NCBI RefSeq assembly: GCF_021021555.1
Contig: NZ_JAINWA010000001.1
Coordinates: 434,001 to 498,000, forward strand
DNA length: 64,000 nucleotides
From: Teretinema zuelzerae
Lineage (GTDB): Bacteria > Spirochaetota > Spirochaetia > Treponematales > Treponemataceae
Reading direction: 5' to 3'
Shown here: positions 40,430-58,557 of the stretch, piece after piece
Layout: every line of letters starts with the position of its first letter
How positions within the stretch are numbered: the stretch's first letter is position 1
Notes under the pieces: generated by a model
Database searches by the model: none
The model's input: only the letters and a program-made list of their open reading frames with translations
Told to the model about the DNA's origin: nothing
Position numbers and translations under genes: made by a program

Positions 40430-40448
40430 CCTTTACATCAAATGATTT

Positions 40449-40521
40449 GGGCCACTAGCTCAGTAGGTAGAGCAACGCCCTTTTAAGGCGTGGGTCGATG
40501 GTTCGAATCCATCGTGGCTCA
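40449..40521 (+). tRNA. tRNA-Lys (anticodon TTT)
   Basis: 73-nt cloverleaf: acceptor stem GGGCCAC/GTGGCTC, D-arm AGCTCAGTAGGTAGAGC, anticodon loop CTTTTAA (anticodon TTT) on an ACGCC/GGCGT stem, and T-arm GATGGTTCGAATCCATC. CCA is not encoded. The AT-rich island and a tyrosine recombinase begin just after it, so its 3' end is the likely attachment site. I saw no second copy of the 3' end within the window. Confidence 0.97.
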
Positions 40522-40677
40522 AACACTTTAATCCTTATGTTATAAGGATTTATTACCACCCGCAAACCGGGCGTAATACTGATAATTCTTCTTATGTGCA
40601 ATGAATGTGCAATAAGCGCGTTCCAGAGCAACGCCCCACTAGGGTGCTGTTCACACATAACAAAAGTGATTGGTATT

Positions 40678-41955
40678 ATGTCCGGTTTTATTTTAACCAA
40701 ACGTGGTGATCTTCCTAACTATTATGTCAGCTTCAAAAACCCTCTAACTGGCAAATATGGTACAAAAAGATGTACTGGGACTTCTGATCGAAAACAAGCT
40801 GAAAAAATAGCCTATCAATGGCTTGTATCTGATTCTGATAATGATAATAAAAAACTTTCCACCAAGAACCTCCTTGATGCAATCAAATTCTCTGAATTAA
40901 CAATTGATGACACAAAGCAAATTGTTGAACTCCTACAAATTAAGGGCTTAGTTGTTTCTGCTGTTTTAAAAGAAGACAAAAGCGATATACCATTGATCGC
41001 TTTTCTTGAGAATTTTTGGACAGCTGAGACATCACCGTATATTAAAGAAAAACTCAGAAAACAACATGGAATCCACAAACGATATATCACGAAACAATAT
41101 GGAGCTATAAAGAACTATTGGAAGCCTTTCTTTAAGGATGTTAAACTTGGATCCTTAACCCGAGATGATATAAATAAGTTTATAGACTGGATGGGACTCT
41201 CCCCTACCCCTTCAACATCGCCAGGAAAGAATGCAATGATTAAGGCCGGAACATTAGCATTACGATGGGCAGCAAGAAACGGATATCTACCACATGATAT
41301 TACACAGGGATTGATGTTTTTTAGTGGAGAAAATAATAAGAGAGAAATTCTAACACCAGAACTAGCAGCTGCTGTATTCCAACGTCCATGGAAAAATCCA
41401 ACATCAAAACTTGCCAATCTCCTTGCGATGTGCACAGGAATGCGAGCAGGAGAGATTCAAGGGCTTAGAAAACAGGATTTAGGAAAATCATGTTTATACA
41501 TACGCCACTCATGGAATTTTGATGATGGTTTGAAAACAACAAAGAATAATGAAAACAGAATTGCGGAAATTGTTTTCCCAGAGCTTATGGGTGCAATTAT
41601 TGACCAAGCCAATTCAAATCCTTATGAGGAAGGCCTCGAGGGGTATGTGTTTTGGGCTTCTATCCCTAATAAACCATGTGAATCAAAAATATGGCTTGCA
41701 GACCTTCGAGAAGTTTGTAAAGAAATAGGCATTAATGACCCCTCATGGGTTACTTTCCATGCCTGGAGACACTTTTTTGCTACATATATGCATGGCAAAG
41801 TACAGGATAAAGTACTCCAAATGGCCACAGGCCATAAGACTAACGCAATGCTTCAACATTATGCAAATCACACTCGTTTGGAAGATATTAATGAGTTAAA
41901 GGAGGCTCAAAAGAGTGTTTTTGAACCAATATTAGGTAAAATTATCGATTTATAG
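40678..41955 (+). CDS. int: Phage-type tyrosine recombinase/integrase
   Basis: About 425 residues. Catalytic residues are visible: Arg in CTGMRAGEIQGL, His-x-x-Arg in HAWRHFFATYM, His in ATGHKTNAMLQHY and the nucleophile Tyr in that same segment. An N-terminal arm-binding and SAM-like core domain (RDDINKFIDWMGL) precede it. I prefer the ATG at 40678 (MSGFILTKRG); the frame is open to 40594. It lacks the extra helix that marks IntI integrases, so it is an island integrase, not an integron integrase. Position after tRNA-Lys is typical of integrating elements. Confidence 0.9.
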   Translation: MSGFILTKRGDLPNYYVSFKNPLTGKYGTKRCTGTSDRKQAEKIAYQWLVSDSDNDNKKLSTKNLLDAIKFSELTIDDTKQIVELLQIKGLVVSAVLKEDKSDIPLIAFLENFWTAETSPYIKEKLRKQHGIHKRYITKQYGAIKNYWKPFFKDVKLGSLTRDDINKFIDWMGLSPTPSTSPGKNAMIKAGTLALRWAARNGYLPHDITQGLMFFSGENNKREILTPELAAAVFQRPWKNPTSKLANLLAMCTGMRAGEIQGLRKQDLGKSCLYIRHSWNFDDGLKTTKNNENRIAEIVFPELMGAIIDQANSNPYEEGLEGYVFWASIPNKPCESKIWLADLREVCKEIGINDPSWVTFHAWRHFFATYMHGKVQDKVLQMATGHKTNAMLQHYANHTRLEDINELKEAQKSVFEPILGKIIDL

Positions 41956-54614: not shown

Positions 54615-55384
54615 GTTGATAACACTTACGAACCACCGGAATATCACTCAAATACCTATTACAGAAGTAAGAATTACAATAATACCCACAATGTGTCAAA
54701 ATACGATACCCTTGTTGTTCATGTAATAGAATTCGCTCAATCAACAAGGATGAAAACATTCTGGTTTTTCAAAAGCAGTGTTTAATTAAACCCTACTTTT
54801 CTTATAGGAAGTAAGAATTTTAAAAAAGTACACTTGTTAACTAGGTCATACTCTGATTAGTTGAACAAATAAAGACCGTATCTTCTGAATATCAGTAAAA
54901 AGACTAATAAGATATTAGAAATATTCAAAATAGTGCAAATTCAAAGATCAAAATGTAAGAACATAGGTATAAGTCAACACAAAGAATGACCTATAAAAAA
55001 ATTAGTGTCATTTTTTTATATCATGTTATACTGGTCAGTAGAAAAACCTTTGAAATATATGAATTCATCAAGAAAAATTATCTAAGGATATTATATGGTA
55101 TAACTATTTATTAACTACTGATATATTGTGGTTCTTTACTAGTTCTTTTTACATATTAATGAAAACCATATTAACGTCCTAAAACAAGATAATATTGATT
55201 CTTGTCACGTACACAAGAAGTTTCTATATCGACAAGTAACTGTGAATCTATCACTCCTGACAAGCTACATACGAGAATTGATAGATTCGTAGTTTCTATC
55301 AATCTTGTTATATAAATTTATATTTATCATATTATCTTGTTGTTTTACATAAATGCATAATTTATAGCGAACAGCCAAACAGAT
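54615..55384. other. AT-rich stretch without a convincing gene
   Basis: About 770 bp of very AT-rich DNA with no gene I can support. Weak dyads (TATCA/TGATA near 55250-55310) are present, but nothing clear. It is the right end of the interrupting element, next to the cassette core site at 55385. Confidence 0.5.
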
Positions 55385-55391
55385 GTTAGAT
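55385..55391 (+). other. Lone cassette core site GTTAGAT
   Basis: GTTAGAT marks the left boundary of the RiPP cassette. It is followed by the leader hairpin with CGCCTTCGGCG; the outer arm upstream (CAAACAGATGTTAG) resembles the end of an attC but the rest is absent. Confidence 0.7.
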
Positions 55392-55466
55392 TCACGCCTT
55401 CGGCGGGCGAAGAAATAGAAATTAATGTTTTTTAACATTAAATACTCAATTAAAGGAGGTGAAAAA

Positions 55467-55583
55467 ATGGCATATCAGAAACCTGTTATTGTTGCACAGA
55501 GCACTGTGCAAATGGCCGAGTGTAGACCTAACTCTAAGCCGGCCGGACGACCTTGCAATCCGCCTGGACCTGGCGGTCGTTAA
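55467..55583 (+). CDS. RiPP precursor peptide, 38 aa
   Basis: Strong AAAGGAGG site 8 nt before the ATG. The leader begins MAYQKPVIVAQ; the rest is a core with two Cys 10 residues apart (Cys19, Cys29), rich in Pro, Gly, Arg, and ending NPPGPGGR. The next gene is a radical SAM/SPASM maturase, 63 nt downstream. This is the classic small precursor plus maturase layout of a RiPP cluster. The cores may be crosslinked by thioether or C-C bonds at the Cys; which one cannot be told. Too short to be found by length-based gene calls. Confidence 0.85.
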   Translation: MAYQKPVIVAQSTVQMAECRPNSKPAGRPCNPPGPGGR

Positions 55584-55590
55584 AATTGGT

Positions 55591-55626
55591 AATAGTGATG
55601 ATGCAAGCAGTTGCATCATCACTATT
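55591..55626 (+). promoter_or_regulatory. Perfect 16-bp hairpin between precursor and maturase
   Basis: Arms 55591-55606 and 55611-55626 (AATAGTGATGATGCAA with its exact complement), loop GCAG. There is no long T-run, so partial termination or mRNA protection is likely. Such hairpins raise the precursor-to-enzyme ratio in many RiPP operons. Confidence 0.75.
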
Positions 55627-55646
55627 CTATTCGGGAGGACAGTGTA

Positions 55647-57113
55647 ATGTACTATCAAATAAAATCTAATATAATGTTCAGAAATTATGATAAATTCGGT
55701 TATATAACCGATAACAGAAATTATTGTTATAAAAAGAAATCTGGTAATAATTTTGTTGTCGGTGATAAAATTCTTTCAGAATCAGGAGCTTTATTTGTTA
55801 GCGTCTTGTCATTGCAGCCAAAAGAGATGTCAGAATTGGTAACCCAAATAATGAAATGTATAGCTGATGTTGAATATGATGTGATAAATAAAGATGCAAA
55901 AGAGTTTTACAGTTTACTTGAAGGTGAGGGCTTTATAGTCTCAGGTGAAACATTTGATGAGTGCAAAAAAAATAATACTAATGCGTTTAAAACAGTAATT
56001 TCAGAAAAAAATAAAACCAGTATAGATTGTATAAACAATAATATTCAGTTAGATACACAAGACTTTTTTAATAAATATTATGGTAGTAGTCCATTATTGA
56101 GAAGTATTCATATAGAGATAACTAGTGTATGTAATGAAAGGTGTATACACTGTTATATCCCAAATGAATTCAAAAATCATCATATGGATTTAGCTTTGTT
56201 TAATAGGATAGTTGAAGAAAGTACAGAAATGAAGGTGTTAAATTTTACTTTAACAGGTGGCGAGCCTATGCTTCACCCCAATTTCCTAGAAATTATCAGT
56301 ACCTGTAAAAAAAGAAATATATCAATGAATATATTATCTAATTTAACAGTTCTTAGTGAGGAAATATTGGATGAAATAAAGTCAAATCCTCTCATAAGTA
56401 TTCAAGCTTCATTATATTCAATTGATCCAGACGTTCATGATGAAATAACAACAGTAAAAGGGAGTTGCAGTTTAACTAAAAATGCAATTAAAAAGCTTGT
56501 TGATAATAATGTAAATATTCAAATAAGTTGTCCAATTCTTAAGCAAAATGTTCACTGCTATTTAGATGTAATAAATTGGGCGAGAGAAATGAATATTAAT
56601 GTTTCTAGCGACCATAATTTGCTTGGAAAATATGATTCGAATACAGATAATTTAGATTGTCGTCTTGATTATGAAGATATCCGTAATATTCAAAAAAATA
56701 TCAGTTATACTGATAGAAGTGATTTAGAAAAAGATATTGAGGAGAAGAAAGCGTTGTCTATGGATGATGCAATTTGTAGCGTTTGTCGCTATTCTTTCTG
56801 TGTTTCAGAAAAAGGAACTGTGTATCCTTGTGCCGGTTGGCAAAATTGTGTCATAGGTGATTTAAATAAATCAACATTAAGTCAAATTTGGTATGAATCT
56901 AAGGAAATAAGTTATCTGAGGAATTTGAAGATTAAGGATTTTAAAAAATGTTTAGGTTGTGAGGATAGAATTTATTGCTCTATTTGCATGGCACGAAATG
57001 CAAATGAGAACAAATCGCATGATCCAATGCAAGTCAGTAAATACCATTGTGATTTAGCGCGTTTAAAAAAAGAAATGTTAATGGAAAATAATCTAACAAC
57101 TGCTTCAACCTGA
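55647..57113 (+). CDS. Radical SAM/SPASM RiPP maturase
   Basis: 488 residues. An N-terminal PqqD-like leader-recognition domain (about residues 1-100) comes first. The radical SAM cluster is CNERCIHCY (CxxxCxxC), with the second motif TGGEPMLHP. The SPASM region has CSVCRYSFCVSEKG, YPCAGWQNC and CLGCEDRIYCSIC, giving two auxiliary [4Fe-4S] clusters. It should modify the small peptide upstream. GGGAGGA site before ATG 55647. Its last seven codons and TGA stop lie within attC4, so the C-terminus is written by the attC. No transporter or protease gene is in the cassette. Confidence 0.92.
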   Translation: MYYQIKSNIMFRNYDKFGYITDNRNYCYKKKSGNNFVVGDKILSESGALFVSVLSLQPKEMSELVTQIMKCIADVEYDVINKDAKEFYSLLEGEGFIVSGETFDECKKNNTNAFKTVISEKNKTSIDCINNNIQLDTQDFFNKYYGSSPLLRSIHIEITSVCNERCIHCYIPNEFKNHHMDLALFNRIVEESTEMKVLNFTLTGGEPMLHPNFLEIISTCKKRNISMNILSNLTVLSEEILDEIKSNPLISIQASLYSIDPDVHDEITTVKGSCSLTKNAIKKLVDNNVNIQISCPILKQNVHCYLDVINWAREMNINVSSDHNLLGKYDSNTDNLDCRLDYEDIRNIQKNISYTDRSDLEKDIEEKKALSMDDAICSVCRYSFCVSEKGTVYPCAGWQNCVIGDLNKSTLSQIWYESKEISYLRNLKIKDFKKCLGCEDRIYCSICMARNANENKSHDPMQVSKYHCDLARLKKEMLMENNLTTAST

Positions 57114-57208
57114 TAATTCCTTTTGTCATGCTTTTTGCAGTCGCTACGCTCGGTAAAAAGCACGCCAATCCCTTCGGGCCGGAATTACAGGTTAAGCAAA
57201 TGTTAGTT
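57091..57208 (+). other. attC site 4
   Basis: ATCTAAC start, GTTAGTT end, nearly identical in its outer arms to attC1 (AACCTGATAATTCC...GGAATTACAGGTT). Inner stem CTTTTTGC/GTAAAAAG and TCGCTACGCTC tip. It contains the end of the maturase reading frame. Confidence 0.88.
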
Positions 57209-57238
57209 GGACGCCTTCGGCGCGCGAGGAGGAAATAG

Positions 57239-57706
57239 TTGATTAGTCAAAATGAAGCAAATTATCAATTAAATATTGATAAGCAGAGGGTTGATGAAAA
57301 CATTGTGCAATTTCCACTTAAGGGATCAAAAGTATCAGTAAAAATAGAATCTTTTGATAAGAAATTGTATTTCAATTTAGATGTTAATAATACCCCAAGT
57401 ACTAATTCAAAAATTACCTATCAAACAAGAAATTTAGAATCCGTCATTCTTGTTCGTCTTGATATTAATAGTGCACATCGTAATCCAATAGTTGATAATC
57501 CACCTCTTCCACAATTTTTACCGTATAACGGGATGTTAATTAAAGGAACACACATTCACTTTTATGTAGAAAACTTTTTTGATAGTTGGGCTATACCGAT
57601 AGAAGATATGCGGTTTAGTAATGGTGATTATGAATTATTGAATTATTTTTATAAAATAAGTTCAATAATAAAACCTCCAATATTTGAATATGGATTTGCA
57701 ATATGA
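57239..57706 (+). CDS. Cassette gene: hypothetical protein, 155 aa
   Basis: No named family recognised with confidence; beta-rich (YQTRNLESVILVRLDINSAH, GTHIHFYVENFF) and reminiscent of small partner proteins of DUF1828/1829 genes. Start is TTG 57239 with GAGGAGG upstream. It overlaps the next gene by 4 nt, so the two form a translationally coupled pair in one cassette. Confidence 0.7.
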   Translation: MISQNEANYQLNIDKQRVDENIVQFPLKGSKVSVKIESFDKKLYFNLDVNNTPSTNSKITYQTRNLESVILVRLDINSAHRNPIVDNPPLPQFLPYNGMLIKGTHIHFYVENFFDSWAIPIEDMRFSNGDYELLNYFYKISSIIKPPIFEYGFAI

Positions 57707-58440
57707 TTAATAATCTTTTAGATAATTATCAAATATGGTTAAAAGATAACTTTATTGTTAATGACAATGAAATTATCACACCGTTTACAGATTCTCATAA
57801 TGATTTGATTCATTTTAGAATTGATACGAGCGCAGATACAATGGTGATTACTGATGACGGTTATACTGTGAGTAATTTAAATATTTCTGGCTTTAATTTT
57901 ACTGAATCACGTCAGTATTTATTTGAATCAATTTTAAAAATAAATGGGTTGTTTGTAGATGATCATGATGCTCTTAAAATGATTTTACGGAATGAAAGTG
58001 TTGGAATTCAAATGCATAATTACATTAATGCATTAAAAGAAATTGGTAATCTCTTAGTTCTTTCGCAACAGAACATTCGAAATTATTTTAGAGAAGATGT
58101 TGAACATTTTTTTCAAGAAAAAAACATACCGTTCTCTAAGAATGTGAGGCGAAAGGGGAAAAGTGGTTTAGATCATTATTTTGATTTTCAACTAGATAAA
58201 ACTCCAATGAAACCTGAAAGAATAATCAGAGTTATTGGCTCAACAGATACAAAAAGCGTTCAATCACTACTTTTTAGTTGGAATGATATTAATATCAGAA
58301 ATGATTTACAGTTAGTTACTTTCATAAATGATAAACTTAGACCTTTAAGCGATAAAATGGAAAAAGCGTTCAATCAATATAATGTTATTCCCGTTGAATG
58401 GAAAAAACGAGAATTGGCGCTAAATATTTTATCGGCTTAA
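57703..58440 (+). CDS. Cassette gene: DUF1828/DUF1829-type protein
   Basis: 245 residues. The N-terminal half shows MVITDDGYTVSNLNISGF, the signature-like strand-turn of DUF1828; the C-terminal half (HYFDFQLDKTPMKPERIIRV) fits DUF1829. The pair with the preceding small protein resembles toxin-antitoxin-like or anti-phage units seen in phages and integrons. I can only name the domains by resemblance. The function is unknown. Confidence 0.65.
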   Translation: MINNLLDNYQIWLKDNFIVNDNEIITPFTDSHNDLIHFRIDTSADTMVITDDGYTVSNLNISGFNFTESRQYLFESILKINGLFVDDHDALKMILRNESVGIQMHNYINALKEIGNLLVLSQQNIRNYFREDVEHFFQEKNIPFSKNVRRKGKSGLDHYFDFQLDKTPMKPERIIRVIGSTDTKSVQSLLFSWNDINIRNDLQLVTFINDKLRPLSDKMEKAFNQYNVIPVEWKKRELALNILSA

Positions 58441-58448
58441 AAAAAATC

Positions 58449-58557
58449 AACTAACAACTGCTTCAACCTGACTTATTTGCTTGTCACGGATTTTTGCACT
58501 TCGCTACGCTCGGCAAAAACCGCGCCAAGCAAAACGCAGGTTAAGCAAATGTTAGAT
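58449..58557 (+). other. attC site 5
   Basis: AACTAAC start, GTTAGAT end, the same outer arms CTAACAACTGCTTCAACCTG and CAGGTTAAGCAAATGTTAG, but shorter inner stem (CTTATTTGCTTG) and TTCGCTACGCTC tip. It separates the DUF1828/1829 cassette from the GHKL cassette. Confidence 0.87.

Follow-up and report, generated by a model that had tools for sequence, protein, structure and literature searches.

A predicted radical SAM RiPP module on an integron cassette and other mobile DNA, with a possible role in phage defence

A small peptide gene and a radical SAM/SPASM enzyme gene, packed together into one integron cassette of Teretinema zuelzerae, form what sequence comparison indicates is a real two-gene module, beyond chance; the pair and its peptide recur at about 40 other loci. 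The predicted features of both genes support well their assignment as a RiPP precursor and its maturase, and the pair is best read as a horizontally spread, self-contained module. Whether this horizontally mobile module would yield a peptide with a cross-linked core, remain in the cytoplasm as a finished product and protect its host against phage is, in our judgement, evenly balanced. We give slightly less than even weight to a bolder proposal, that this is an undescribed form of immunity to phage: a minimal radical SAM RiPP of two genes and no exporter, with a near-invariant core peptide that would be made intracellularly in many phyla, and moved from host to host by many vehicles.

The window, by which we mean the whole stretch of DNA analysed, comprises 64,000 nt of T. 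zuelzerae contig NZ_JAINWA010000001.1 (434,001–498,000, forward strand), and the following features (in window coordinates) delimit the cassette and its genes:

55386–57202, + strand: cassette (precursor, maturase and attC), 1,817 bp, with bounds set by two core sites
55385–55391, + strand: GTTAGAT core site at the left cassette boundary, attI-type, from the sequence and the leader comparison
55467–55583, + strand: putative RiPP precursor, 38 aa, MAYQKPVIVAQSTVQMAECRPNSKPAGRPCNPPGPGGR (ATG 55467, TAA 55583)
55647–57113, + strand: predicted RRE–radical SAM–SPASM maturase, 488 aa, from domain profiles, fold and Cys pattern
57093–57206, + strand: cassette attC (R″ CTAACAA, L″ TTCAACCTG, L′ CAGGTTAAG, R′ GTTAG), from its copies and its folding

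The precursor gene has a strong ribosome-binding site (AAAGGAGG), and its product divides into a leader (residues ~1–18) and a core that begins at Cys19 (CRPNSKPAGRPCNPPGPGGR), the two cysteines being Cys19 and Cys30; 63 nt separate its stop codon from the maturase ATG (55647). An initial sequence-only reading of this DNA had placed a 38-residue peptide 63 nt 5′ of a radical SAM/SPASM gene and had seen no transporter, protease or immunity gene. The arrangement was recovered at the same coordinates, and the cassette (55386–57202) indeed contains none of these three kinds of gene.

Homologous precursors stand beside the maturase at 38 of 40 loci (at one of the 40, L125, the sequence starts at the maturase and has nothing upstream), which makes the precursor–maturase pairing a conserved one, usually with the precursor ~70 nt 5′ of the maturase and farther away in L113 and L134. 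The precursor consensus, CRPNSKPSGRPCNPPGPGGR, is near-invariant and includes a conserved leader of the form MxYxKPxILAQSTVQMAE; residues K5, P6, A17, C19, P25, G27, R28, P29, C30 and P35 are invariant across 36 precursors, and the maturases of these relatives are 39–47% identical to the window maturase. Across the 20-codon core, the window and E. coli plasmid copies differ by 13 synonymous and 2 nonsynonymous changes, and across all 38 codons the E. coli copy (precursor MSYSKPTVLAKSSTYMAQCRPNSKPSGRPCNPPGPSGR; maturase at CP099011 86303–87931) differs from that of Photobacterium by 17 synonymous changes and 0 nonsynonymous ones. Judged by these codon counts, the peptide is under strong purifying selection and is a real, selected protein-coding gene. 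The notion that the ORF is incidental and that the maturase acts on another substrate has nothing beyond the small size of the ORF in its favour, and we rejected it as extremely improbable on the codon test and on the homologous peptides at those 38 maturases. Within a Bacteroidales subgroup (L120, L124, L126, L127, L129, L133 and L135) a third Cys replaces Ser26 (RPCGRPCNPP), a natural variant that would be useful in mapping cross-links.

The maturase matches the Pfam domains Radical_SAM (PF04055, E = 1.2e-21) and SPASM (PF13186, E = 3.2e-7), with a CxxxCxxC motif at C162/C166/C169 and nine cysteines, invariant or nearly so, in residues 377–468. Its AlphaFold model (mean pLDDT 81) aligns with SuiB over residues 2–470 (Z 24.7) and also with CteB, ChlB, SkfB and TigE, these structural relatives sharing ~15–21% identity over the aligned structures, and a sequence-profile search of the PDB returned SkfB first (E 4e-18), then PqqE and SuiB. 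When modelled separately (pLDDT 88), the N-terminal 112 residues match RRE domains, namely those of the lasso B1 protein TbiB1 with bound leader (Z 9.8), TruD, TigE and PqqD (Z 7.5), and the PqqD-like N-terminus of the sequence-only reading was therefore correctly named. The Foldseek E-values for this segment are weak (best 0.002), with RRE proteins in the top-ranked rows, and a methyltransferase domain scores equally high (Z 10.1); fold alone being insufficient, we make the RRE call because the segment is fused to a SPASM enzyme that has a peptide partner. The enzyme thereby combines RRE, radical SAM domain and SPASM cysteines, as a maturase of radical-SAM-modified RiPPs should. Its best 25 NCBIfam matches, taken as a check for known sactipeptide or ranthipeptide maturase families, all fall far under the curated cut-offs (best 82 vs 400 bits; SkfB 51/300; PapB 58/340; AlbA 68/850), and neither NCBIfam nor Pfam holds a model for the precursor.

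The claim that core sites bound both genes stands for GTTAGAT at 55385, which is real, and for the attC on the right, which is genuine; the left site, however, is an attI-like core and not an attC. The R″/L″ half of the right-hand attC matches four other sites in the window and none in shuffles (five copies of this attC family in the window in all), and its bottom strand folds (z = −5.85), giving core-site-bounded genes with a foldable attC as expected of an integron cassette. On the left, the core site closes a longer element:

54995–55429, + strand: diverged copy of an attI/promoter leader, without intI, recognised by similarity to the leader on contig C3
55005–55032, + strand: promoter-like GTGTCA-N16-TATACT with extended −10, candidate cassette promoter, from conservation in the leader copies

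This leader copy is 59% identical over 445 columns (E = 2e-17) to the intI–attI leader of the main integron (contig C3), with a score of 81 bits against at most 27 bits in 40 shuffles, and on the strength of this match we abandoned an attC-remnant origin for the left GTTAGAT. A second intI-less leader copy (66%) lies at C1:532,294–532,721, and both copies sit inside the tRNA island described below, each 5′ of a small cassette array. GTGWCA-N16-TATACT is the most conserved block across the three leader copies, and it is because of this conservation that we name a candidate promoter, promoter-like sites per se showing no enrichment over shuffles. Since GTTAGAT is the end of the leader copy, the RiPP cassette occupies the first position behind the predicted promoter, by which it may be served, in an attI-bearing array without an integrase of its own. 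The next cassette (window 57204–58553), which is followed by a cassette for a HATPase protein, carries both genes of the PADLOC candidate system PDC-M24:

57239–57706, + strand: first gene, DUF6978, PADLOC candidate PDC-M24A
57703–58440, + strand: second gene, DUF1828–DUF1829, PADLOC candidate PDC-M24B (E = 4.8e-62)
58451–58555, + strand: attC of the PDC-M24 cassette

Several cassettes (window 42272, 44817, 55377 and 57194) also have a GC-rich hairpin (GACGCCTTCGGCG-like) at their 5′ end, 3′ of the R′ core.

The integron integrase of the genome is encoded at C3:1880840 (TIGR02249, 457 bits; cut-off 265) and is transcribed toward attI, like those of other Treponema integrons. A pattern for the attC family of the RiPP cassette matches the genome 198 times, of which 188 fall on one strand, vs 0 for the reversed control pattern, and among the matches listed the C3 sites begin at ~C3:1,697,000 and run toward intI. 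This very large chromosomal integron (C3:1697000–1880840; L068, L074 and L075) comprises IntI and ~188–190 attC-like sites, a count comparable to those of Vibrio superintegrons; the first cassette of its main array seems to encode a transposase-like protein, and two 54-bp attC sites in that array (L068 1578–1631 and 3000–3053) consist of little more than R and L boxes and a small hairpin. The array that begins with the RiPP cassette lies elsewhere, within a 67.6-kb tRNA-Lys island that extends from window position 40448 to C1 ~542,096:

40448–40522, + strand: tRNA-Lys(ttt), the insertion site of the island
40594–41955, + strand: tyrosine integrase of phage type, belonging to the island and distinct from integron integrases (PF00589, E = 7e-16)

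The 3′ 40 bp of the tRNA gene (40483–40522) are repeated at C1 ~542,096, and the island additionally encodes a 1745-aa protein with ArdC N-terminal, MuF-C, RadC and LPD1 domains. Copies of an attI leader without intI on an integrative island are possible docking sites, and suggest a route by which cassettes could pass from a chromosomal integron to a mobile element.

Relatives of the maturase were found at 1e-20 in 21 of 393 genomes of the phylum, the majority of those inspected falling in a sister group whose precursors read MxYxKPxVxAQNxxxGSYAAGCP; treponeme loci of this sister RiPP group include L040, L041, L043, L045 and L046, and L045 and L053 have two precursor-like ORFs each. The family proper, which we define by the core CRPNSKPSGRPC, occurs in two other Treponema-family genomes and on seven conjugative plasmids of E. 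coli, Salmonella and Photobacterium. In all seven plasmid records the precursor is unannotated, and it has therefore probably been overlooked elsewhere. A five-sequence maturase profile recovered 38 loci in GTDB genomes (including one Treponema copy already found in the phylum search) and two IMG/VR contigs, both of which carry precursor variants with slightly different cores. As a lone query, the window maturase returned no relatives from the genome contigs and viral contigs, a degenerate core pattern had no match in IMG/VR, and phage records gave one weak match, confined to the radical SAM part. A search of 20 genomes found one copy in each. A quick maturase tree, with many weak branches, intermixes Bacteroidota, Bacillota, Thermodesulfobacteriota, Pseudomonadota and Spirochaetota and places the window maturase on a long branch.

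The vehicles are correspondingly diverse. On the E. coli plasmid RCS57TR364_p (NZ_LT985265.1; L067 3897–10035) the pair is the passenger of a 6.1-kb Tn3-family transposon, with tnpA, resolvase, precursor and maturase between 49-bp inverted repeats, and a 3.05-kb part of this transposon recurs on a Salmonella plasmid and a further E. coli plasmid; a Tn3-type transposon carries the pair on IncF plasmids of E. coli, and probably in Salmonella too. Complete E. coli genomes in RefSeq contain nothing close to the E. coli plasmid unit, which is therefore rare there. The Photobacterium plasmid copy is diverged (78% DNA identity) and adjoins a resolvase, and phage-type integrases lie near several Bacteroidota loci. 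The sequence-only reading had proposed a RiPP carried in integrons and had named, as the result that would speak against it, the pair occurring widely outside cassettes. That is what the GTDB loci, the conjugative plasmids and the IMG/VR contigs represent, the window being the only cassette case recognised among the loci found. The packing of precursor and maturase as one cassette is upheld, but the family is not defined by integron carriage, and the reading that survives is of a pair that travels on many kinds of mobile DNA, an integron cassette being one. Carriage on plasmids, transposons, islands and a cassette would also suit an addiction element, in which a toxin-like, poisonous modified peptide aids the persistence of its vehicle, and toxin–antitoxin cassettes are common in integrons; however, the unit has just two genes, one of them the maturase, and no conserved antidote gene, and we regard this explanation as very unlikely.

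We compared the neighbourhoods of 20 loci (the seven closest genes of each, 140 in all) with control regions of seven genes lying far away on the same contig (136 in all). At E ≤ 1e-30, 57 PADLOC families were matched near the pair vs 0 in the controls, and at 1e-5, 365 vs 31, figures that count families and not proteins (several families may match one protein) and that come from controls unmatched for mobile DNA. By name, the strict list amounts to about a dozen proteins, and on that count Fisher's p is ~4e-4; among them are type I and type IIG restriction enzymes, a CBASS cyclase with TIR effector, PrrC, HamA, a CARF protein and a defence reverse transcriptase. Neighbours checked directly include a CBASS cyclase and TIR effector (L099), SngB/SngC (L110), a type I methyltransferase (L101) and LmuB with TIR (L111). 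Read by eye, the unit of genome G200 lies between hsdS-like and AAA-ATPase/hsdR-like ORFs, among hsdM/hsdS/hsdR-like ORFs, and that of G505 adjoins a helicase. Location among known defence genes is thus recurrent, in very different bacteria, and the pair may be an overlooked peptide-based phage defence. The enrichment is no proof of such a function, because islands carry other cargo and the controls were unmatched for mobile DNA.

Across 39 loci there is no third gene in common, and no exporter, protease or immunity gene recurs. This bears on the possibility that the product is a narrow-spectrum antibacterial, a bacteriocin like the sactipeptides or ranthipeptides that would leave through host exporters and have its immunity encoded elsewhere. 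The closest solved structures do include maturases of thioether and other RiPPs (SkfB, CteB and SuiB), and at one locus (L106) an apparent peptidase-ABC exporter lies upstream (read by eye), but the missing genes, the enrichment beside intracellular defence genes and a core that hardly varies between phyla, where bacteriocins usually diversify, make a bacteriocin unlikely. Arms-race molecules do not usually keep so constant a core, which would be compatible with a cofactor or signal too. On that account the product would be cofactor-, metallophore- or signal-like, with a fixed chemical structure that some enzyme or receptor of the host uses; in its favour one may cite the near-invariance of the core in distant phyla, PqqE among both sequence and fold relatives, and a TPR protein directly after the maturase at five Bacteroidota loci. 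Yet the distribution is patchy and mobile, no partner enzyme is conserved, and the neighbourhoods are mobile and defence-rich, which leaves this account quite improbable. The TPR-repeat gene, directly 3′ of the maturase in 5 of 39 loci, all Bacteroidota (L097, L102, L105, L111 and L118), is a possible partner or target of the module.

We favour an intracellular defence RiPP, at about an even chance, because of the defence neighbourhoods, the lack of export genes and the precedent of anti-phage lanthipeptides. In such a mechanism, the RRE of the maturase would bind the conserved leader, and the radical SAM/SPASM core would cross-link the core peptide at least once by radical chemistry, thioethers from Cys19 and/or Cys30 being the likeliest result. 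The finished peptide would remain in the cytoplasm and protect against phage, either by striking a process of the phage or the host in the course of infection or by acting within a broader defence island, and integron cassettes, Tn3 transposons, conjugative plasmids and integrative islands would spread the module. If the defence reading is true, the near-constancy of the core should indicate a target that is itself conserved. With the E. coli plasmid copy, the module can be tested in a laboratory strain at once.

The architecture is of a known kind, and the family appears undescribed in the searchable literature (supplements and subscription papers aside), in which queries with the core sequence and with radical SAM, SPASM and phage defense returned no describing paper; the core is likewise absent from the main text of a survey of Bacteroidales RiPPs. 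Like SkfB, CteB, SuiB and TigE, the window maturase joins RRE, radical SAM and SPASM to a small precursor; unlike those systems, it has its own precursor family, with a KP leader and the CRPNSKPSGRPC core. The two invariant Cys of the family precursors are candidate sites for a thioether of the sactipeptide or ranthipeptide kind. PADLOC-DB has no model for the family, its sole models that match the radical SAM core being those of prokaryotic viperins (pVip; E = 2.6e-18); the curated NCBIfam viperin cut-off is not reached (50.7 vs 180 bits). Viperins make modified nucleotides and are not known to have an RRE, a SPASM domain or a peptide partner.

Lanthiphages, as summarised in PMC12360287 and PMC12715929 (Shomar et al.), are anti-phage class I lanthipeptides of Actinomycetota that are active intracellularly and, in those accounts, without obvious antibiotic activity. 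Their RiPP genes, like the present pair, are situated in defence islands; as there described, however, they use LanB/LanC chemistry and are confined to Actinomycetota, whereas the window family has a radical SAM/SPASM enzyme, an unrelated precursor, two genes, a distribution over many phyla and a putative anti-phage role. In place of LanB/LanC synthetases the window unit has a radical SAM enzyme alone, with no further gene recurring across loci. Integron cassettes are themselves a source of phage defence, in sedentary chromosomal integrons as well as mobile ones (Darracq 2025, Getz 2025 and Kieffer 2025, as presented in PMC12444791). Like the defence cassettes presented there, ours belongs to a genome with a very large integron and has a neighbouring cassette with candidate defence genes; unlike them, it encodes a peptide and its maturase and not a protein effector, and it lies in a tRNA-island array behind an ectopic, intI-less attI copy. 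Were the defence reading true, radical SAM RiPPs would join bacterial immunity beside viperins, with their modified nucleotides, and lanthiphages, with their lanthipeptides.
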